Shown here piece by piece: positions 4,738 to 39,698 of a DNA stretch of 41,402 bases (within the stretch, counting starts at the first letter, position 1; the number at the start of each line of letters is the position of its first letter). Source of the stretch: a candidate division WWE3 bacterium RIFOXYB1_FULL_43_24 (GTDB taxonomy: Bacteria > Patescibacteriota > WWE3 > UBA101185 > UBA10185). The notes beneath the pieces were generated by a model. That model saw only the letters and a list, made by a program, of their open reading frames with translations, was not told the DNA's origin and ran no database searches. The stretch is taken from NCBI GenBank assembly GCA_001773135.1, contig MEVX01000010.1:1-41402 (forward strand). The letters run 5' to 3'. A program made the translations under genes and the position numbers.

Positions 4738-4959
4738 TTAATTGGAGTTTTTGCTGTCGGTGCTTTTCCACGCTTTCCACGACACCTCGGCCTCTTTTTT
4801 TGTAACAACTTTAATGGCAATTCCCATCTGTACCAGCACGTAGTCCCCCACTTTTAATGGCATTCCGCCGGCGAGAGCCTGTCTCGTCTCAGTAGGATAT
4901 TCAATTATTAGCTTCCCGCCTTGGATCTCTTTTACTATACCCGGTATTGCTAAACACAT
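4738..4959 (-). CDS. hypC: hydrogenase assembly chaperone HypC/HupF family
   Basis: Protein starts MCLAIPGIVKEI...; the start is internal to the 132-aa ORF in the track (ATG at 4959). Confidence 0.9.
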   Translation of the reverse strand: MCLAIPGIVKEIQGGKLIIEYPTETRQALAGGMPLKVGDYVLVQMGIAIKVVTKKEAEVSWKAWKSTDSKNSN

Positions 4960-4980
4960 GTATCTGTTATTATACATAAT

Positions 4981-5505
4981 ATGGAATCTGCCAATGTTGC
5001 TGCTCAATCCACAGAAAAAAAGAAACTCGTTGTAGGTTGGTTTTCTTTTACCTGCAGTGAGGACAGCACAATTTTGTTTACCGAGCTTTTGAACGACCAC
5101 TTCGTCGAATGGAAAACGCTTGTCGAATTCAGACATTTAAAAGCTTTAAAGACTAAAAATTCTATCGAAAATCTGGACGTTGCTTTTATTGAAGGCGCGA
5201 TTTCTTCAGAAAAACAGGCAACAGAAGTCACTAAAATCCGAAATAACTCGAAATATGTAGTGGCAATAGGCGCGTGCGCGTGCAACGGACTTCCCTCTGC
5301 GAGCAGAAACATGTTCGTCCCTGAAAATACTAGCTTCAAAACCAAATGGTATATGGAACACTTTGATTATGCTGCTAAAGTGAAAAAACTCGAAGACGTT
5401 ATTAAAGTCGACGACAAGGTTGACGGGTGTCCAATGAACGCCGAAGCGTTTAAAACAGCTCTCTGGAAGTACTTAAAATTATTTAAAATAGTCGAAAATG
5501 CATAG
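4981..5505 (+). CDS. [NiFe]-hydrogenase small subunit, short single-cluster form (NuoB/20-kDa family)
   Basis: WFSFTCSEDSTILFTELLND, DVAFIEGAISSEKQ, AIGACACNG and DGCPMN motifs; overlaps the large subunit by 8 nt. Confidence 0.85.
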   Translation: MESANVAAQSTEKKKLVVGWFSFTCSEDSTILFTELLNDHFVEWKTLVEFRHLKALKTKNSIENLDVAFIEGAISSEKQATEVTKIRNNSKYVVAIGACACNGLPSASRNMFVPENTSFKTKWYMEHFDYAAKVKKLEDVIKVDDKVDGCPMNAEAFKTALWKYLKLFKIVENA

Positions 5506-6799
5506 CGGGAATATAACGATCGAAAATATAACTAAAATTGAGGGGACCGCCGGCGTTGAAGTTACTATTGAAAATGACAAGGTAACCGACCTTAAATTTA
5601 TTATTAAGGATTATAGAAGATTCTATACCGAAGCCGTACTAGGTAAGCCGTATATTGCTTCTCCTTCGTTTTTATCAAGAATTTGCGGTACCTGCTCGGT
5701 CGCCCATCTTTTTGCGTCTCTCGAAGCAATAGAAAAATCTCAGGACATTGTATTAACCGAGCAAACGCGTTTATTACGCAGGGTTGCGTATGACGGTTTA
5801 ATGATTCGCGACCACGCTCTGCATTTATACTTTTTCGTTTTGCCTGATGTCTTAGGCATTGATTCTATTTTGGACATACCGGATACTCACAATGACCCCG
5901 GGCACATACTCCTTCACGATTCGTTTGATATAAAAAAGCTCGGGACCGATATAACTGACGTAATTATCGGAGCTGCAATTCACGCACCATATCCGACGGT
6001 TGGTGGTTTTCTAAGAACCCCGGACCCGGCTAAATTCCCGGCTTTAATAGAAAGATTGGAGAAAATAAGACCGCAGGTTCTACGGGGGATTAAAACTTTT
6101 TACGATTATAAACAGGAGCAAGTAAGTGACTCGGACTTTTTATGTTTAAGAAACAGCACTAGTTTTGATTTCATCGAGGGAGAGATTACAAACTCCGACG
6201 GTAAGGCGATTTCAGAAAGCAATTTCCATGATTTTTTGAAATCTGTTGTCGTACCCTACTCACAATCAGAGGGTTATGTTTTTTCAGATGAACACGATAA
6301 CTATTTAGTAGGTTCGCTGGCCAGAATTAATTTTAATAAAGACCTTCTTAATCCGAGAACCAAACAGGATTGTGAAGAATATCTGAGTGTTTTTCCGTCA
6401 AGAAACATTCACCACAATAACTTGGCTCAGGCAATCGAAATTCTCCAGTGTGTGGACGACGCGCTCGATATTTTAAAAGGTATAAAGGTGGTCGACGAAA
6501 AGCCCGTCAAGATGCCCAAAAAGGCCGGTGTTGGAGTCGGAGTTGTGGAGGCTCCGAGAGGAACTTTGTATCACATGGCGCGGGTCAACGATAAAGGGAT
6601 GATAGAAGACTATGATGTTATTGTCCCGACCTCCCAGAACCAGATAAATATAGAAAAAGATCTGAAAAAGTACTTTGGTGCAAACCTGGATAAACCTGAA
6701 GATGTTCTTAGAGTGGAAGCCGAAAAAATAATCCGCGCCTACGATCCCTGCATGTCTTGCGCCACTAACTTCTTAAAGATTTCCTGGATCCGAAAGTAA
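5498..6799 (+). CDS. [NiFe]-hydrogenase large subunit (group 3-like)
   Basis: N-terminal RICGTCSVAH (L1) and C-terminal DPCMSC (L2) nickel ligand motifs. Confidence 0.93.
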   Translation: MHSGNITIENITKIEGTAGVEVTIENDKVTDLKFIIKDYRRFYTEAVLGKPYIASPSFLSRICGTCSVAHLFASLEAIEKSQDIVLTEQTRLLRRVAYDGLMIRDHALHLYFFVLPDVLGIDSILDIPDTHNDPGHILLHDSFDIKKLGTDITDVIIGAAIHAPYPTVGGFLRTPDPAKFPALIERLEKIRPQVLRGIKTFYDYKQEQVSDSDFLCLRNSTSFDFIEGEITNSDGKAISESNFHDFLKSVVVPYSQSEGYVFSDEHDNYLVGSLARINFNKDLLNPRTKQDCEEYLSVFPSRNIHHNNLAQAIEILQCVDDALDILKGIKVVDEKPVKMPKKAGVGVGVVEAPRGTLYHMARVNDKGMIEDYDVIVPTSQNQINIEKDLKKYFGANLDKPEDVLRVEAEKIIRAYDPCMSCATNFLKISWIRK

Positions 6800-7146
6800 T
6801 CTATCTCTTTTTCCATCGGTAGCCCTATTATCGTAACGTTGCCGAGCTTACCCAGTTTCTTAAGATATTTCAGCTGAAATCCCAAATCAAAATCGTGAAC
6901 AGAAACCGAACCGGTATTAATTAGTTTGTCGATGTCACTATCCACTATTAATTCCGGTTCTTCTATTCCTTCTACCGTGTCCATTATGTAAATCTGTTCG
7001 TCGGGCTCAAACGGCAAATCCGCGTTAGGCTCAACTTCTATAAACTCTATTTGAGGGAACACATCACTCAATTTTTTCCGTGCAACAAAAGCTTTGTTGT
7101 CCAAACTTAAATCTTTATTTCCGAATAAATAAACTTTCATTGGCAA
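6739..7146 (-). CDS. hydrogenase maturation protease (HyaD/HycI-like)
   Basis: MKVYLFGN...D N-terminus, IYIMDTVEG and SVHDFDLGFQLKYLKKLG motifs; adjacent and convergent to the large subunit. Confidence 0.75.
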   Translation of the reverse strand: MPMKVYLFGNKDLSLDNKAFVARKKLSDVFPQIEFIEVEPNADLPFEPDEQIYIMDTVEGIEEPELIVDSDIDKLINTGSVSVHDFDLGFQLKYLKKLGKLGNVTIIGLPMEKEIDYFRIQEIFKKLVAQDMQGS

Positions 7147-7184: not shown

Positions 7185-7889
7185 ATAGACAAAAAAGCGC
7201 TCAGATTAAACTCAAGATATACACTTCCGCCTAATTCTTTAGGTTATTGTGGGAAAGACTCGGCTCCCGAGAAATTTAAAGACTGCGTGACCAAAAGTAG
7301 ATGCGACGGAGTTGCAGAAGAATTTAAAAACTTTATAGTTTTACACCCGTATCTTAGAACATTATCTAAAATTACTGGGCTTCCGAAGTTCTCATATAAA
7401 GTAGTTGAGGGCTATTGGCTGGGCAACGAAAAGCTTCTTAAAGCCAAGAATAAGCACTACCCTATTTTGTTACACTTTTTCGCTAAACAGGGGGTTCCTG
7501 AATGGTTTGTCACCGAGCTAAAGAAAAGTAAGCCTAAAAAATTTATTCCAACCCACTTATTTCAGGTTTTGCACGTCGGTGTGGGAAGAGCTAGTGGCTC
7601 CGTTCCTTATAATCTTGAGTCGATTAATAACTGCATGATCCGCTGGGGGAAAGTGGAAAAGGTTAACAAAAAAACTGCGGTAGTTAAATTAAATTCGTTA
7701 AAAAAAGTTAAGGGCGTTTATAAACGCGTACTCATTACCGAAACGTTTCCATTTGTAGAAGGGTTTGTTCCGCGTATTAAAGTGGGGGACGTTGTTACTG
7801 TTCATTGGAAGCAGATAGTGAAAAAACTTAACGAAGAAGAGGTTGAGAAAATAACTTACTGGACGGACGAGGTTTTGAAAACTATTTAA
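7185..7889 (+). CDS. DUF6390-like, hydrogenase-associated protein
   Basis: The track ORF starts at GTG 7287, but the open frame extends upstream and encodes RYTLPPNSLGYCGKD, resembling the DUF6390 N-terminus. Later VVEGYWLGNEKLL, THLFQVLHVGVG and NNCMIRWGKV also fit. Start codon is uncertain (see findings). Confidence 0.65.
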   Translation: MDKKALRLNSRYTLPPNSLGYCGKDSAPEKFKDCVTKSRCDGVAEEFKNFIVLHPYLRTLSKITGLPKFSYKVVEGYWLGNEKLLKAKNKHYPILLHFFAKQGVPEWFVTELKKSKPKKFIPTHLFQVLHVGVGRASGSVPYNLESINNCMIRWGKVEKVNKKTAVVKLNSLKKVKGVYKRVLITETFPFVEGFVPRIKVGDVVTVHWKQIVKKLNEEEVEKITYWTDEVLKTI

Positions 7890-8369: not shown

Positions 8370-9281
8370 CTATAGTGCTGTTTGGGCCTGTTTTGTTGTA
8401 GGTAAGGGGTTACGGGCAAATAATAGAAGCCCGAAAACAATGAGTGCCGTCTGAAGTGTTAGCGTAAAATTCCAGCTATGCGTGATGAAGACGGCGGAAA
8501 GTACGTTAGTGATTAAAGTAGAAGAAACCAAGACTGAGGTTACGACAACGGCCGGGGCATGCTTTAGGGCGCTGTACCAAGTTGTAGTGTAGGCCAACAG
8601 AAAAAGAACGGTTATACCGATAAAAAAGATTTGCTGTCCGCTTAGCTCTAAGCTTTTCTGCATGACCTGAGGTACTGTTAGTAATGTTGCGGACATAAGT
8701 ACAACGGAGCCAAGTCCCATCCTAAAAGCTGTAACTATGTTGGGCGAAACCGTTGCTAAAACTTTTTTCGCAATTATATTTTCAACTGCCCATAAAACAG
8801 TCGCAATCAAAAGCATTAATTCTCCCTGAGAAAATTTGAAACCCTTAAAACCGCCCACAATAATATTTCCGGTGAATAATAATAGAACACCCACGAACTG
8901 CCGTTTAGAAACTATTTCTTTTAATAGAGGAACTGCCATCAACATAACCCAAAAAACCAACGTTTTGTGAATAATCGCTGCGTTAACTGCGGGAGTTTGA
9001 GACAGCCCTGTGAAATAAAGGTAGAAAGGAAGCGAACCCCCGATAATTCCTATCAGGATTAAGTACTTTAGTTCTTTTCCCGTGAGCTTTAATATTTTTC
9101 CCCACTCTCCGGTGGCCAAAACTATAGCAACAATTAAAAGCGCAACCGCTAGATTTTTAACGGAGGTAAAATATAGTGCGGGTTTAATTGCATCGACGGC
9201 GAACTTATTAACAAAAATAGAAACACCCGAAATTACAGCCGTAAGTAATGAAATGTAAATGCCTTTAGTTGTATTAGACAT
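8370..9281 (-). CDS. EamA/DMT family permease
   Basis: About 10 TM segments and duplicated EamA pattern; start overlaps the ferredoxin stop by 1 nt. Confidence 0.88.
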   Translation of the reverse strand: MSNTTKGIYISLLTAVISGVSIFVNKFAVDAIKPALYFTSVKNLAVALLIVAIVLATGEWGKILKLTGKELKYLILIGIIGGSLPFYLYFTGLSQTPAVNAAIIHKTLVFWVMLMAVPLLKEIVSKRQFVGVLLLFTGNIIVGGFKGFKFSQGELMLLIATVLWAVENIIAKKVLATVSPNIVTAFRMGLGSVVLMSATLLTVPQVMQKSLELSGQQIFFIGITVLFLLAYTTTWYSALKHAPAVVVTSVLVSSTLITNVLSAVFITHSWNFTLTLQTALIVFGLLLFARNPLPTTKQAQTAL

Positions 9282-9526
9282 TAGTCAGGCCAAACCTGCT
9301 GACCGGTTTCGGCATCGGTTACCACGATTGCCTTTGTAGGGCATGACTGCGCCGCCATTAATATGTTTTCAGCCTCATCGGCCGCCCCATCCACAAATAC
9401 AGCTTTATTGTTCTCGTCGAGCTTAAATACTCCCGGAGATACAGCAATGCAGGATGCTGCCCCAATGCAATCTTTAGCTACTACTTTTATTTTATATTTT
9501 CCTATTTGAATTTCTTTATCTTCCAT
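9281..9526 (-). CDS. ferredoxin with three cysteines (probable [3Fe-4S] type)
   Basis: DCIGAASCIAVSPGVFKLDE...AAQSCPTKAI; the second cysteine of the CxxCxxC motif is Ala. Confidence 0.85.
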   Translation of the reverse strand: MEDKEIQIGKYKIKVVAKDCIGAASCIAVSPGVFKLDENNKAVFVDGAADEAENILMAAQSCPTKAIVVTDAETGQQVWPD

Positions 9527-10422: not shown

Positions 10423-12161
10423 TTTTTACTCCTTATCTTATTTACGGCGTCGATGATTTCTTCAGGATAAATTTGGCGTCCGTCGTATTTCAAAAAGTTT
10501 TCATCAATTTTGATTTGAGTATTTTCGCGTATTAGTTTTTCCATCTGTCCTGTGTAGTTGCACTCAACATTTAAAATATATTTTGATTTAGATGACATTT
10601 CGCTTAGTTCATCAGACGGAAACGGACTCATCCAGTTTACGTGAATATAATTAACACCGTCCAGATTTTTTAACGCCTGCAAGATACTTCCTTTATTACT
10701 TCCCCAGGAAATTATAGTTATCTCAGCATCTTCGGGGCCGAACAACTGTGGTTTTTCCATGTCCTGCTCTTTGCAGGTTTTAAGTTTGGTCATTCTTTTT
10801 TCCATCATTATGTTTCTGTTATCAATATCTTCACTGGAGTAACCTTCTTCGTCATGTTCATCGGAGTTTGCGATGAAAAAGTTACCGACACCGGGAACAG
10901 TTCTTTGCGAAATTCCGCTTGGTTCAGACGCATATCTTTTATAATCCTCCACTTTTGCTGTTGTAAGTTTTCCGCGGTCTATCCTGTAATCCGAATATTC
11001 GTATAACGGGAAGCTTTGGGCGTTTTCACAAATATTTTTGTCGATAATTACAACGACGGGTGTCTGATATTTATCGGCTAGATTAAATGCTTTCATTGTA
11101 AGCTCAAAGGCCTCTTTTGCGTCACCTGCGGCCAAAACTATCCGTGGGAAATCATCCTGGTGTGCATTCAAAATCATCTGGAGGTCGCCCTGGCCACTCC
11201 AGGTCGGTAAACCTGTTGCAGGACCCGGGCGCATTCCTTCGATAATAACAAGCGGGGTCTCCGTCATTCCCGCGAGACCGTAGCCTTCCGTCATCAGACA
11301 AAATCCTCCTCCCGATGTAGAGGTCATCGATCTTGCACCTGCATAAGATGCTCCGATTGCCATGTTTATTGCAGAAAGTTCGTCCTCGGGTTGTTTATAA
11401 ATGTAACCGAACTTCTCCTGATTCTCCGCGAGTACGTGCAGAATATTTGAAATCGGTGACATCGGGTAGATTGCAGCATATTGCAGACCTGCGGAAATAG
11501 CACCCAACGCTACACTTTCGTTTCCGTCAATTGCCATATAGGGAACAAAATTACTCAGAGACTCCAAAGGACTTAATGAATTTTTTAGATGTTGCCTATA
11601 ATTTTCGGTTACATATTTGAAACCGTTTTCTGCAGCTGCAACGTTAACTTTTACTATTTCATCGCCTTTACTACCGAATTCTTCGGAGATCAGACTATTA
11701 AGAATCAGAAGGTTGCCTCCGAGAACGGCTGTAACGGCCCCAAGCGCAACTGTGTTAATTAAAAGATCAGAATTTCCGGCTTCTTTCGCGATTTTGGACA
11801 GAGGCACACCCAGTAAAACCACAGTAGAGGGAACTTTAGATGTATCGATTTTGGCCGCAGAGTCATATATTAAGCCTGCCCCATCTGCGAACTCAGTTAA
11901 ATGTTTATTAACGGTGTCCTGATTTAGAGCGATAAGAAAGTCATTAACTTTTCTGGGTGCCGTGACTTCTTCTTTGGAAATATTTACCTGGAGGACGTTG
12001 TGCCCCCCTTTAATTAATGACGGGTATTCTATTTGGTTATATATGTGATATCCCGATCTTATCGCTAATTTAGCGAGCATCAGTCCGGCAGACTTTACGC
12101 CCTGACCAGCCTCCGCTCCTATTTTTATGGATATTATTGTGCTAGGCATCGTATTTTTCAA
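10419..12161 (-). CDS. korA: 2-oxoacid:ferredoxin oxidoreductase, fused gamma-alpha subunit
   Basis: N-terminal gamma-type domain (IGAEAGQGVKSAGLMLAKLAIRSGYHIYNQIEYPSLIKGGHN), then alpha domain (YPMSPISNILH...TSTSGGGFCLMTEGYGLAGMTETPLVI). Confidence 0.93.
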   Translation of the reverse strand: MKNTMPSTIISIKIGAEAGQGVKSAGLMLAKLAIRSGYHIYNQIEYPSLIKGGHNVLQVNISKEEVTAPRKVNDFLIALNQDTVNKHLTEFADGAGLIYDSAAKIDTSKVPSTVVLLGVPLSKIAKEAGNSDLLINTVALGAVTAVLGGNLLILNSLISEEFGSKGDEIVKVNVAAAENGFKYVTENYRQHLKNSLSPLESLSNFVPYMAIDGNESVALGAISAGLQYAAIYPMSPISNILHVLAENQEKFGYIYKQPEDELSAINMAIGASYAGARSMTSTSGGGFCLMTEGYGLAGMTETPLVIIEGMRPGPATGLPTWSGQGDLQMILNAHQDDFPRIVLAAGDAKEAFELTMKAFNLADKYQTPVVVIIDKNICENAQSFPLYEYSDYRIDRGKLTTAKVEDYKRYASEPSGISQRTVPGVGNFFIANSDEHDEEGYSSEDIDNRNIMMEKRMTKLKTCKEQDMEKPQLFGPEDAEITIISWGSNKGSILQALKNLDGVNYIHVNWMSPFPSDELSEMSSKSKYILNVECNYTGQMEKLIRENTQIKIDENFLKYDGRQIYPEEIIDAVNKIRSKK

Positions 12162-15009
12162 AATAAATTCTATCTTTAGGGCAACCGTTGGCGGTTAGAA
12201 TTTTTGTTACATCATTAATCATAAATTTATTACCGCAAATGTACACAGCGCATTTAGATGCATCAGGAAAGTCGTTTTTCACCAGAGGTGTAATAAAGCC
12301 CGTCGCCCCATTCCATTTAGTGCTTTTGTTGCACACCGCTATCTGACATTTAAAATTGGAAAATTCTTTAGTAAGTGACTCCAGATAGTCCTGCATAAAT
12401 ATGTCTTCGCAATCGTTAAGCCCAAGATACAGAGAAATCTGTTTAGTTGTCTTTTCTACTCTGAGTAGATGTTCTATCATAATTTTCAACGGTGCGAATC
12501 CGCTTCCCGTGGCTAAGAACAAAAGGTTATCCGCACTTTCGTCAGCTCTCAGTGTAAAGATTCCGAAGGGGCCGAGATAAGTCATGACGTCCCCTTCCTT
12601 TAAGGCTTCAAAGAATTTTGAACCCGGGCCCCCGGGAGTTGTATCTACAAGCAAATTAAACTTTGTAGGAGAGGACTGCCCGGCTACCGAGTAGCAGTTT
12701 ATCCTTGTAGCTGAAACTTTTACGCTAACATACTGGCCGGGTTTTAAAACGAGAGGTTCTTCTGCTTCGAACTCTAAATACCTCATCTTCCCTGCCAAAA
12801 CCTCGTTCTTAAGAGTTTTTGCTACTTTGAACTTCGGTCCTGCAGGTTTTGGTTTATTTAATTCCAAAATTACTTTTGTATCGACCGCCCAAACATCGTT
12901 AATCGTAACAATCACAGGATTGATTTCTATTTCCTGTATTTCAGGAGCGGCCTCATAAAGTTTTTGCAGGTTGTAGATGAGATTATAAAGTTTTTCCAAA
13001 GCGTAAGGAGGCTCATTATTGTTTCCCTTAAGAACGGAATATATTTTTGAGCCTTTTACTAATTCCTGAATGCTTGCCATGTCTAACGGCAATAGATGAA
13101 GATTTTTGTCGGCAATGAGTTCTACTAGTGAGCCGCCTGCCCCGAACAGTAAAACAGGACCGAACGTAGGATCTCTTTTTACACCTACTAATACTTCTGC
13201 TCCGCTGGGAATTTCTTTTTGAATTTGAAATTGCACGTGGGATTTTATTTCTTCGTCCAGGTTTTCAGTTTTTCTTTCGAGAGTACTCCATGCATTTTCA
13301 AGTTGGTCTTCGTTTCTAATATCTAAAATGACACCGCCGAAATGTTTTTTATGCAAAAGCCCGGGAGAAGAAAGTTTAAGGACAACCGGATATCCGATTT
13401 GGTCCGCAAATTTAGATGCGTCTTTAAGGTCGGTTGCGATTTTTGTTCCCGGAGTCCGAATTCCTACGGATGAAATTACGTTATCGGCATCAAGATTATC
13501 CAGTGCCTTTTGTCCCGCAGTTACGGCCTTTTGGAGAATTTTGGAACATTCTTCGGGCAATATTTGTTTGTTCAAAAGGCCTATGTCCGTCATCTCACGC
13601 AGTATTTTTTCCTGCCGGCTTTTGAATTTCCACATTGCTCCGATAACCGCGATCGCTCTCTCCGGAAATAAATATGAAGGTACTTTAAGCTTGTTAAGGG
13701 CAAGTTCACCTGCGGAAACCATACTTCCTCCGATGAATGAACAGAAGACGGGTTTCTTATATTTTTTTGAAATATTTCCGATCATCTCAGCCGTCTTTTC
13801 TATCTGAGTCATCATTTGGGGCGTGAGAATAACCAGCAATGAATCACATTTGTCTGTTTTTAAAACTATTTCAGCGGCGTTAGCAAAACGGTCTGCAAGA
13901 GCATCTCCCAAAACATCTACAGGGTTTAACAAACTTGATGATCTGGGAAGCACTTCGGATAATTGTTTTTTAATATCGTCGTCGATTACTGCAATTTCGA
14001 GTCCTTCTTCGATTACTGCATCCGCGCTTATAACTCCCGGGCCTCCCGCGTTTGAAATGATTGCAACCCTCGGTCCCGCGGGAATGTCGTTCCATGCGAA
14101 AGCTTTTGAAAGATCGAAAAATTCTTCAAGTGTGTTGCATCTGTAAACACCCGCCTGCTTTAAAGCAACGTCCAAAATATCATCGGCTCCTGCGATCGCT
14201 CCTGTGTGAGACTGCATAGCTGACTTGGCGGCGTTTGTTTTTCCCGGTTTGATAATAAAAATTGGGTCGTTCTTGGCGATTTGCTTTGTTAGTTTTAAAA
14301 ATTGCTGGCCGTCAGTGATAGACTCCAGATACATACCAACAGGCTCTATTTTCCTTGTCGTCCCGTCTGCAAGGCTTGAAATAGGCTCTTCTTTCTTACT
14401 TAAAAAATATTCCAGAACGTCGTTCTCGTTTATAACTGTCTTGTTTCCCATTGTAATGAACTCGGAAAACCCAACGTTAACGAGAGAAAACCAGTCAAAA
14501 AGACTTGTGGCGAGGGCGCCGGACTGTGAGATAAAGCGTAGATTTCCCGGCTGGTCAGGGACTTTTGCAAATGTTGCGTTAAGAGAAACTAGATTGTTAA
14601 CGAAGCCTAAGCAGTTCGGACCGAGCATATTTATTTCATTATTTTTGCAGAGTTGTTCCAACTGTTTTTCAAGCTCTGCCCCCTCGGATCCGGTTTCTTT
14701 AAATCCTGCGGTGAGTGTCACAACATTTTTGATGCCTTTTTTAGCAATTTGTTCTATGGTAGGTAATACAAAAGCAACGGGTATGGCAATTATTGCGAGG
14801 TCAGGAACTTCGGGTAAATCTAAAACGGTTTTATAGCATTTTATTTTTCCTATTGAGTCTGTGTTGGGATTTACTGCGAAAACTTTACCTTTATATTCCG
14901 ATTCAACGATATTTTTTAAAATCACTGCGCCCACTTTTTCGGGTGAGTTAGAAGCCCCGATGACAACAACTGATTTTGGTGAAAAAAGGGCAGCGAGATT
15001 CTTGGGCAT
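12142..15009 (-). CDS. ADP-forming acyl-CoA synthetase (alpha-beta fused) with C-terminal ferredoxin-NAD(P)+ reductase-like FAD/NAD-binding module
   Basis: CoA-binding N-terminus (LFSPKSVVVIGASNSPEKVG), SHTGAIAG active-site His region, ATP-grasp region (GYPVVLKLSSPGLLHKKHFGGV). From about 12840 down to 12142: RINCYSVAG (FAD), GPGSKFFEALKEGD, FLATGSGFAPLKIM (NAD) and VYICGNKFM...IYFEKYDA. Confidence 0.93.
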   Translation of the reverse strand: MPKNLAALFSPKSVVVIGASNSPEKVGAVILKNIVESEYKGKVFAVNPNTDSIGKIKCYKTVLDLPEVPDLAIIAIPVAFVLPTIEQIAKKGIKNVVTLTAGFKETGSEGAELEKQLEQLCKNNEINMLGPNCLGFVNNLVSLNATFAKVPDQPGNLRFISQSGALATSLFDWFSLVNVGFSEFITMGNKTVINENDVLEYFLSKKEEPISSLADGTTRKIEPVGMYLESITDGQQFLKLTKQIAKNDPIFIIKPGKTNAAKSAMQSHTGAIAGADDILDVALKQAGVYRCNTLEEFFDLSKAFAWNDIPAGPRVAIISNAGGPGVISADAVIEEGLEIAVIDDDIKKQLSEVLPRSSSLLNPVDVLGDALADRFANAAEIVLKTDKCDSLLVILTPQMMTQIEKTAEMIGNISKKYKKPVFCSFIGGSMVSAGELALNKLKVPSYLFPERAIAVIGAMWKFKSRQEKILREMTDIGLLNKQILPEECSKILQKAVTAGQKALDNLDADNVISSVGIRTPGTKIATDLKDASKFADQIGYPVVLKLSSPGLLHKKHFGGVILDIRNEDQLENAWSTLERKTENLDEEIKSHVQFQIQKEIPSGAEVLVGVKRDPTFGPVLLFGAGGSLVELIADKNLHLLPLDMASIQELVKGSKIYSVLKGNNNEPPYALEKLYNLIYNLQKLYEAAPEIQEIEINPVIVTINDVWAVDTKVILELNKPKPAGPKFKVAKTLKNEVLAGKMRYLEFEAEEPLVLKPGQYVSVKVSATRINCYSVAGQSSPTKFNLLVDTTPGGPGSKFFEALKEGDVMTYLGPFGIFTLRADESADNLLFLATGSGFAPLKIMIEHLLRVEKTTKQISLYLGLNDCEDIFMQDYLESLTKEFSNFKCQIAVCNKSTKWNGATGFITPLVKNDFPDASKCAVYICGNKFMINDVTKILTANGCPKDRIYFEKYDA

Positions 15010-37895: not shown

Positions 37896-39698
37896 CTAAT
37901 ATCTTTGCTTGAGTCTTTCCTGAAGCGCGAAATAGGCAGGTTTAGGTCTCAAATCCGTATCAAAAAGTAAGCTTGAACCGTACCTAAGAGGGTATCTGTC
38001 AGATGCAGTAGTAGAACCAAGAAGATCGGTGATTCCCCACGTAGAGTAACCGGTACAGTTAGGTTCGCGTAGGCAGGCGTCTAAAGCTAACACATACTGG
38101 TTGCTTTGTTCTTCAGGATCATCTCCCACGACATCTATTTCTGATATTCGGACCTTGAGTCCCAGTTCCGCAAGTTTTTGCATGTGTTTTCGCAATACGG
38201 CCGAGTCACTGTAATCTCCGTCTGCATATATATGCGATTCAAACCCGACACCGTCGATGGGTACTCCCCTGGCTTTAAGTCTTTCAACTAAGCCTATGAT
38301 AGCGTCCCATCTGTTGCCGTCGCGTTCAAGACCGTAATCATTAAGGTAAAGTATTGCTTCCGGGTCAGCTTCATGGGCAGCTTTAAAAGCAATATCTATA
38401 TATTCTTCTCCCATAGCCTCGTACCATATGGTGTTTTCAAGACCCTGTCTCGCGCCGTGGAATACGGATAATCTATTTGCAAGGGGCTCGTTCACAACAT
38501 CCCACTCTACTACCCTTCCTTTGTAATGGTTAACGATAGTTGTAATGTGGTCTACCATTATTTTTTGCAACTCTTCTTTTGGGGAATCTGTTATCCATTG
38601 AGGATTGCTTTTTGCATACACTAAAGTGTGCCCATGAACTGACATATCATTTTGTTTTGCGATGTCGACAAGTAAGTCCGTTTCAACAAAAGAGTAAACG
38701 TCTTTTTGCGGATGTATGAAGTGAGGTTTCATACCATTTTCGGGCGTGATCATATTAAACTCTCCTAAAGCTATTTTTCTGTAATTTTCGTCGGTAACAA
38801 GAGCTCCAAAAGCGATTGCCGCTCCGATATTTAATTTTCGGGGGTGCGCGGCAGCAAGATTTCGGAGTGTATTCGGGTCATCGCGTTTTACAATAAAGGA
38901 CGGAGGGGTAACAATCTCAACTTTACCTTTTACGGCTTTATTTACTGTTAATGAGCTTAGTAACCACGCATCTCCTACTGCCGCATCAGCCCCGAACCAC
39001 ACTTCGTTACTATTAAAAATACCGTGAGCGGGTATGGTACCGAGCATTTTCTTACCCTCACTGATAATGATCGTGTCTTTTCTGTGCTCGATAGAAAGAT
39101 TCACGGGGTTTTTCAGGGTAAAGGGAAAAGTCCTCATATCAATGGAATTTGAAGAAGTACCATCCCACAAGCGCGCGATAATTGAGTCTTTACCCACCTC
39201 TATTGCGATACTACCGTTCTCAAAACGCCACTGGTCGTAAATAATAGGAGGTTTTCCGTAAAGCCTGAACGACGCTATATGATTTATTTTTTCCATGCGT
39301 ACGTTTACTTTAAAGTCACCCGAGATTTCAAGATGCGGTCCCGCGAGATTCACAGGAGAATTTATCTGTCCGATAGTGCCGTCTTGGTGGATAATAATTC
39401 TATTAAGAGCTGTTATAAGAACACCTTCCGGCGTAACGGTCGAACCGGCAAAATGCTTCCAATTCTGATCTGTAAGGATATCGACGGGTTTAGCTTTCAG
39501 GTCGATGTGTGTTTTTTCAAGTTGAACCGGTTTGCTGAGGAGAGTTCTAAATGTAAAAAAGGTAACGACAGTTAGGATTATTACTGCGGCTGTGATTCCA
39601 AACAGTGCAATATGTGTGCGGTTCAAAGTTATATTTTTACTCAGTGCTAAGATTTTCTTTTTTAGGTCTTTTATTTTCGTACTGATTGTATTATACAA
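37896..39698 (-). CDS. membrane-anchored glycoside hydrolase family 10 (endo-xylanase-like) with N-terminal beta-sandwich-like region
   Basis: VHGHTLVYAKSNPQWI, VVEWDVVNEPLANR (acid/base Glu), LKVRISEIDVVG (nucleophile Glu), GYSTWGITD; N-terminal TM. Confidence 0.92.
   Translation of the reverse strand: MYNTISTKIKDLKKKILALSKNITLNRTHIALFGITAAVIILTVVTFFTFRTLLSKPVQLEKTHIDLKAKPVDILTDQNWKHFAGSTVTPEGVLITALNRIIIHQDGTIGQINSPVNLAGPHLEISGDFKVNVRMEKINHIASFRLYGKPPIIYDQWRFENGSIAIEVGKDSIIARLWDGTSSNSIDMRTFPFTLKNPVNLSIEHRKDTIIISEGKKMLGTIPAHGIFNSNEVWFGADAAVGDAWLLSSLTVNKAVKGKVEIVTPPSFIVKRDDPNTLRNLAAAHPRKLNIGAAIAFGALVTDENYRKIALGEFNMITPENGMKPHFIHPQKDVYSFVETDLLVDIAKQNDMSVHGHTLVYAKSNPQWITDSPKEELQKIMVDHITTIVNHYKGRVVEWDVVNEPLANRLSVFHGARQGLENTIWYEAMGEEYIDIAFKAAHEADPEAILYLNDYGLERDGNRWDAIIGLVERLKARGVPIDGVGFESHIYADGDYSDSAVLRKHMQKLAELGLKVRISEIDVVGDDPEEQSNQYVLALDACLREPNCTGYSTWGITDLLGSTTASDRYPLRYGSSLLFDTDLRPKPAYFALQERLKQRY

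Follow-up and report, generated by a model that had tools for sequence, protein, structure and literature searches.

Most CPR bacteria remain uncultured, and they subsist on scarce energy. Among known proteins, the closest to the first half of the fusion protein described here are the ADP-forming acyl-CoA synthetases (ACDs) Nmar_0206, a 4-hydroxybutyrate-CoA ligase (PDB 8wzu), and Ca. Korarchaeum ACD1 (4xym). Nmar_0206 has an identical order of alpha and beta domains and 32% identity in the structure alignment, with the catalytic histidine motifs retained. In contrast to both enzymes, the fusion adds a C-terminal FAD/NAD(P) reductase module (FNR). E. coli PatZ and the ACD-GNAT acetyltransferases also combine an ACD-like core with an additional C-terminal domain. 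However, that domain is a GNAT acetyltransferase, whereas the fusion has an FNR and retains the core catalytic histidines. The best profile matches of the FNR are MmoC, BenC, and NqrF, which share its FAD_binding_6 plus NAD_binding_1 module but have a [2Fe-2S] ferredoxin domain of their own; in the fusion, the FNR is joined to an ACD and the ferredoxin is a separate FeS protein.

Two described hydrogenase types resemble the enzyme encoded nearby. The Group 3b sulfhydrogenase of P. furiosus (SHI, HydBGDA) likewise has a large subunit and an NAD(P)-linked FNR fold within its system; however, the small subunit studied here is truncated, HydB and HydG are not adjacent, and the FNR is not of the HydG type. 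Jaffe et al. (2020; PMC7304191) described hyd2 hydrogenases with truncated small subunits (mean, 164 aa) and no proximal gamma and beta subunits, and considered their function uncertain. For some hyd2, they reported gamma-type or NAD-binding matches that were distant and on the opposite strand, and for others nearby PF07992 proteins (PMC7304191). The hydrogenase studied here shares with these hyd2 a truncated small subunit, missing gamma and beta subunits, and a HypC-like neighbor. The hyd2 text mentions neither an ACD-FNR fusion nor a cluster of 2-oxoacid oxidoreductase, ACD, and the ferredoxin Fd3 (PMC7304191); such a survey would register the fusion as a distant, opposite-strand NAD-binding match.

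Domain layout and family of the fusion protein

The window analyzed here is a 41,402-nt stretch (contig MEVX01000010.1) belonging to a 778-kb genome of candidate division WWE3 bacterium RIFOXYB1_FULL_43_24. Its minus strand carries an open reading frame of 955 codons without interruption (positions 12142 to 15009), which the initial annotation had read as an ACD of alpha plus beta architecture followed from about position 12840 by an FAD/NAD(P) reductase module. The ORF list and Pfam bore out this reading, with four ACD domains matched within aa 12 to 715, two FNR domains within aa 737 to 935, and the FNR beginning at approximately nt 12835. The ACD alpha part opens with CoA_binding_2 (aa 12 to 138; 14596 to 14976; 1.8e-21), followed by Succ_CoA_lig (aa 154 to 304; 14098 to 14550; 2.7e-38), in which the SHTG histidine H268 is conserved in the alignment, and Ligase_CoA_2 (aa 315 to 463; 13621 to 14067; 1.5e-11). 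The beta part is an ATP-grasp_5 domain (aa 495 to 715; 12865 to 13527; 2.2e-60) with a conserved HK histidine, H553. A linker of variable length (approximately aa 716 to 729; 12823 to 12864), evident in an alignment of 14 fusions and in low pLDDT at residues 718 to 723, leads into FAD_binding_6 (aa 737 to 818; 12556 to 12801; 2.1e-6, above cut-off), where RINCYS replaces the canonical RxYS, and NAD_binding_1 (aa 831 to 935; 12205 to 12519; 1.5e-16), with TGSGxAP and YxCG motifs. As judged from sequence, the 955-aa protein is a complete ACD (aa 1 to 715) joined to a complete FNR (aa ~726 to 955).

The CoA-binding, Succ_CoA_lig, and ATP-grasp_5 domains expected of an ACD were all found by Pfam and NCBIfam, and the 4-hydroxybutyrate-CoA ligase model matched aa 6 to 702 with 507 bits, a score under that model's substrate-specific cut-off. 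On the FNR side, Pfam and the structure models agreed on an FAD barrel plus an NAD(P)-binding Rossmann domain, and the GxG(x)xP and CG motifs for NAD(P) appeared as TGSG and YxCG. An AlphaFold2 model of the full fusion (mean pLDDT, 80; pTM, 0.65), the structure prediction that the initial annotation had called for, placed a barrel (~726 to 817) and a Rossmann domain (~828 to 952) C-terminal of the ACD. In Foldseek searches, the ACD part matched PDB 8wzu (TMt, 0.91) and the tail matched enzymes such as cytochrome b5 reductase and NqrF; PDB sequence matches agreed with the profile assignments for both halves. When modeled alone with five close sequences, the FNR took the same fold class, with a TM of ~0.55 to PDB FNRs. 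Given this value and the pTM of the full model, the models support the type of fold but not the placement of the domains. A PHROGs search gave no match.

The residues expected at the active sites are largely retained. Across nine divergent fusions, H268 and H553 of the ACD were invariant, as were Y773-S774, the TGSG segment, C925-G926, and the C-terminal E951 of the FNR. The FAD motif takes two forms: it is canonical RxYS in G007, G015, G021, G024, and G098, and its Arg is replaced by Asn in G000, G010, G028, G034, G236, and G283, that is, in about half of the fusions, including the window's protein. Each Asn-type fusion has a Lys or Arg two residues before this position (Arg in the window), where fusions of the canonical group have no basic residue. 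This pattern suggests that in the Asn-type motif the phosphate contact has shifted rather than been lost.

The FNR module had also been likened to HydG/gamma subunits of hydrogenases, a close kinship that the profile scores do not support. NCBIfam models for MmoC, BenC, and NqrF scored 115, 113, and 79 bits, respectively, against 33 bits for HydG (cut-off, 650). In addition, the module lies outside the CPR HydG branch of the tree, and the protein ends in EKYDA, before the place of the C-terminal Cys-rich [2Fe-2S] segment of HydG. HydG-type identity was rejected at the family level. Pfam likewise found no GNAT domain in the fusion, the FNR occupying that place. Two other CPR ACDs carry C-terminal extensions of their own (L163:6252-8951, GNAT by Pfam; L165:6089-8764, similar and PatZ-like), so that fusion at the tail of ACDs is recurrent. 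Separate FNR genes adjoin SUF Fe-S assembly genes in several CPR genomes (L121, L138, L149, L182, and L183), hinting at a general role of these enzymes in supplying electrons to cluster assembly.

Distribution and origin of the fusion

Full-length, stop-free homologues with 84 to 92% identity were present in three assemblies of the same genus, including the single-contig complete chromosome CP006914 (RAAC2_WWE3_1), and those in other genera, families, and classes had 48 to 61% identity. The named relatives are candidate division WWE3 (Katanobacteria). An assembly join or frameshift at positions 12830 to 12870, the concern attached to the original claim of a genuine fusion, was ruled out, since the fusion is intact across many independent assemblies. 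In same-genus pairs, dN/dS was ~0.03 to 0.06 for both halves; these values point to purifying selection on each, with neither decaying.

The initial annotation had proposed a domain search across genomes for the same order; searches of CPR genomes detected the fusion in 17. Fourteen are among the 48 genomes searched in the WWE3/Katanobacteria class (G000 to G005, G007, G010, G015, G021, G024, G028, G029, and G034), some of them with copies interrupted by contig ends and one (G004) with a copy broken within the ACD part. The remaining three, G283, G236, and G098, lie outside the class and came from 389 genomes drawn from the phylum; 97 genomes of this draw had an ACD match, the majority without the FNR part. 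Drawing further genomes from the class of G283 yielded a single addition, G459, with a gene truncated ahead of the FNR part. These profile searches covered CPR genomes. A scan of 85,488 species with six short peptide patterns recovered the fused form from WWE3 alone, which is a weak negative, and literature searches of open-licence papers found no description of an ACD-FNR fusion. We conclude that the layout is real and conserved and, within the searched set, apparently limited to some CPR lineages. What is new is the architecture, a fusion of ATP-synthesis and redox domains; its families and reactions are known.

Phylogenies of both halves bear on how the fusion arose. The fused FNR modules formed a single clade relative to separate CPR FNRs (support, 100/100), so several independent fusions are not supported. 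The ACD halves grouped together, and the unfused ACDs of G033 and G040 were the only ones nested among them. One fusion followed by one later loss in G033/G040 is the simplest reading of these trees. The FNR gene of G218, which adjoins an Fd3 gene, was moderately supported (82/70) as a neighboring branch of the fused clade.

The surrounding gene cluster and its hydrogenase

The 3' end of the fusion gene overlaps a minus-strand gene for the alpha subunit of a KorA-type 2-oxoacid:acceptor oxidoreductase (TIGR03710; 10419 to 12161), followed on the same strand by the KorB-type beta subunit (TIGR02177; 9565 to 10422), both assigned by profile and synteny. Next on this strand are Fd3, a single-cluster ferredoxin with three Cys ligands (Fer4_13; 9281 to 9526; Pfam and alignment), and an EamA-family membrane transporter (8370 to 9281) of a kind that locus comparison placed in most hyd2 loci examined. 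Farther along lie genes for a DUF6390 protein with a HypC-like C-terminal part (7287 to 7889, plus strand; Pfam and locus comparison) and a HycI-like hydrogenase maturation protease (6739 to 7146, minus strand; weak Pfam match, conserved position). The hyd2-type [NiFe] hydrogenase is encoded on the plus strand, with its large subunit at 5498 to 6799 (Pfam, NCBIfam, and homologue search) and its small subunit at 4981 to 5505 (Pfam, NCBIfam, and alignment). A HypC maturation chaperone (4738 to 5136, minus strand; Pfam), whose true start is probably downstream of the listed ORF start, completes the set. The proposed link between ATP formation and redox chemistry thus gains support from the neighboring 2-oxoacid:ferredoxin oxidoreductase, ferredoxin, and [NiFe] hydrogenase, which argue for it better than the fusion alone could.

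The order ACD-FNR, KorA, KorB, Fd3, EamA, DUF6390, HycI, HydA, HydD, with the fusion gene first, was kept with small differences in the window and in G001, G004, G007, G015, G028, G034, G098, G236, and G283. After Fd3, which in G004 was detected separately, these loci have EamA and/or DUF6390 and then HycI, HydA, and HydD; in G010, the hydrogenase genes are on a different contig. Unfused relatives of this ACD were found in G040, G291, G102, G218, G402, G239, and G336 and on one Shapirobacteria contig, and none of these eight loci had a hyd2-like hydrogenase; in G291 and G218, a flavodoxin gene lies near KorAB instead. EamA-family transporters go with hyd2 genes across distant CPR, their cargo perhaps being a metal or a fermentation product. 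DUF6390 proteins with the HypC-like C-terminal part occur in most hyd2 loci and may be maturation factors.

The window's small subunit is 174 aa long versus ~250 aa in the hyd1/Group 3b type, its C-terminal Cys-rich part being absent. Three of the four usual proximal-cluster cysteines are retained in the hyd2 type, and TC(S/C)ED(S/N)T replaces DCEGC as the first motif in every aligned hyd2 small subunit covering that stretch. No HydB or HydG gene was found beside the window hydrogenase, whereas the hyd1-like loci checked (L131 to L134) have both. The window hydrogenase thus matches hyd2 in size, context, and missing subunits, on which its putative assignment to that clade is based. As a separate observation, the large subunit ends in DPCMSCATNFLKISWIRK (6770 to 6799, plus strand), where the usual His of DPCxxCxxH is absent, though a HycI-like protease gene is adjacent.

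Fusion and hydrogenase occur together almost without exception. Large subunits with at least 68% identity were present in 17 genomes, 16 of which have the fusion; conversely, 16 of the 17 fusion genomes have such a subunit. The exceptions are G024, which has the fusion, KorAB, and Fd3 with hyd2 undetected, and G033, which has hyd2 and an unfused ACD; neither gene, then, strictly needs the other. In the phylum draw, co-occurrence was 14/15 each way (Fisher P, ~1e-23, which is only a guide because the genomes are related). Independent support is provided by the lineages of G283, G236, and G098, outside the class, each of which has the two genes within this cluster, suggesting transfer of the whole cassette.

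A candidate NAD(P)H link for hyd2

Comparison with more distant hyd2 loci points to Fd3 as the partner of a flavin reductase. Fd3 carries the motif CIxAA.C...CP, in which an Ala occupies the position of the Cys or Asp typical of single-cluster ferredoxins, and is nearly the same in distant hyd2 loci; its cluster could be a [3Fe-4S] or an incompletely ligated [4Fe-4S] center. In distant loci (large subunit identity, 43 to 50%), Fd3 adjoins a ~414-aa Pyr_redox_2 reductase in G113, G331, G298, and G299, and G331 unites Fd3, this reductase, an unfused distant ACD (33%), KorAB, and hyd2 in a single cluster. The Pyr_redox_2 reductase has relatives in 8 of the 12 distant hyd2 genomes (48 to 54% identity; G137, 37%), and these eight had no detectable FNR. 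A separate FNR is present in two of the remaining genomes, G188 and G208; in the last two, G231 and G330, neither type was detected at the thresholds used. The 17 fusion genomes had no close copy of the Pyr_redox_2 reductase, only partial matches in G007 (37%) and G098 (30%). G208 and G218 each encode an unfused FNR immediately next to Fd3. Fd3 thus repeatedly accompanies a flavin reductase of NAD(P)H type, which belongs to either of two unrelated families; in clusters of the WWE3 type, it is the one joined to the ACD. Counting against this reading, G000, G001, and several other fusion genomes also encode an unfused FNR paralogue, which could serve hyd2 instead.

On balance, we favor the reading that the FNR module is an NAD(P)H:Fd3 reductase within a 2-oxoacid-fermenting, ATP-making, hydrogen-linked cluster, the whole being a bifunctional protein of energy metabolism. 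The proposal draws on domains, motifs, conservation, synteny, co-occurrence, and the alternative reductases, and established biochemistry of the named families supplies its reactions. KorAB would convert a 2-oxoacid, CoA, and oxidized ferredoxin to acyl-CoA, CO2, and reduced ferredoxin. The ACD half would use this acyl-CoA from its neighbor, together with ADP and Pi, to yield the acid, CoA, and ATP. The FNR half would bind FAD and NAD(P)H and exchange electrons with Fd3, encoded three genes downstream, and HydAD would interconvert Fd3 electrons and H2, with Fd3 or the module itself linking to the two-subunit enzyme. The fused FNR would then be the NAD(P)H connection for hyd2, which has neither the gamma subunit (NAD(P)-binding) nor the beta subunit (FeS) found in Group 3b, and redox disposal (NAD(P)H to Fd3 to H2, or the reverse) would be tied to substrate-level ATP formation. 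FAD content, electron transfer to Fd3, and partnership with the hydrogenase are inferred; electrons could flow in either direction, the nucleotide may be NADH or NADPH, Fd3 may also be the acceptor of KorAB, and covalent linkage may bring some gain. A three-Cys cluster may be too high in potential, making H2 evolution via Fd3 hard. It would be a long shot that ACD-FNR, KorAB, Fd3, and HydAD form one physical complex coupling NAD(P)H and 2-oxoacid oxidation to ATP and H2, an undescribed type of soluble fermentation machine that CPR lineages would have exchanged as a single cassette.

The near-complete co-occurrence with hyd2 (16/17 both ways), the cluster order shared by lineages outside the class, and the Fd3-reductase pairs at the hyd2 loci of other CPR lineages all make it rather unlikely that the two modules are active but functionally unlinked. 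Under that alternative, a stop codon was lost between neighboring genes of one pathway and the fusion was kept only for equal expression, with the FNR serving general Fd/NAD(P)H balance and hyd2 a mere neighbor. Fission and loss are tolerated, as the unfused ACDs of G033 and G040 nested among fused ones indicate; G024 retains the fusion with hyd2 undetected; and the separate SUF-adjacent FNRs of CPR suggest a general reductase.

A quite improbable alternative is that the FNR is a redox sensor whose binding of NAD(P)H and flavin tunes ACD activity, comparable to the ACT or GNAT additions of ACD-like proteins. Such proteins indeed gain modules at the C terminus (PatZ-like ACD-GNAT in G497 and G569), and the canonical FAD Arg is substituted in about half of the fusions. 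However, the NAD motifs, YS, and C-terminal Glu are invariant, every Asn-type motif has its compensating basic residue, the ferredoxin and hydrogenase partners fit the needs of a reductase, and alternative reductases occupy hyd2 loci. Very improbable is direct docking of the fused FNR on hyd2 as a gamma subunit, with no ferredoxin and the ACD within the hydrogenase complex: although hyd2 is without gamma and beta subunits (PMC7304191) and HydG of P. furiosus SHI has an FNR fold too (9nf0_C), the truncated small subunit is without the distal cluster segment expected to contact a gamma/beta pair, the FNR module is without an FeS cluster, and the Fd3 in the cluster is a simpler carrier.

The fusion and its cluster nominate a specific reductase and electron carrier as candidates for one large hyd2 branch, and the Pyr_redox_2 protein is a different candidate reductase for another. 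They thereby point to a testable answer for the missing NAD(P)H link of hyd2, which the published survey left open. Elsewhere in the window, an ORF at 37896 to 39698 (minus strand) resembles, by eye, an endo-xylanase of family 10 that has a membrane segment at its N terminus, which is unusual for a reduced CPR genome.
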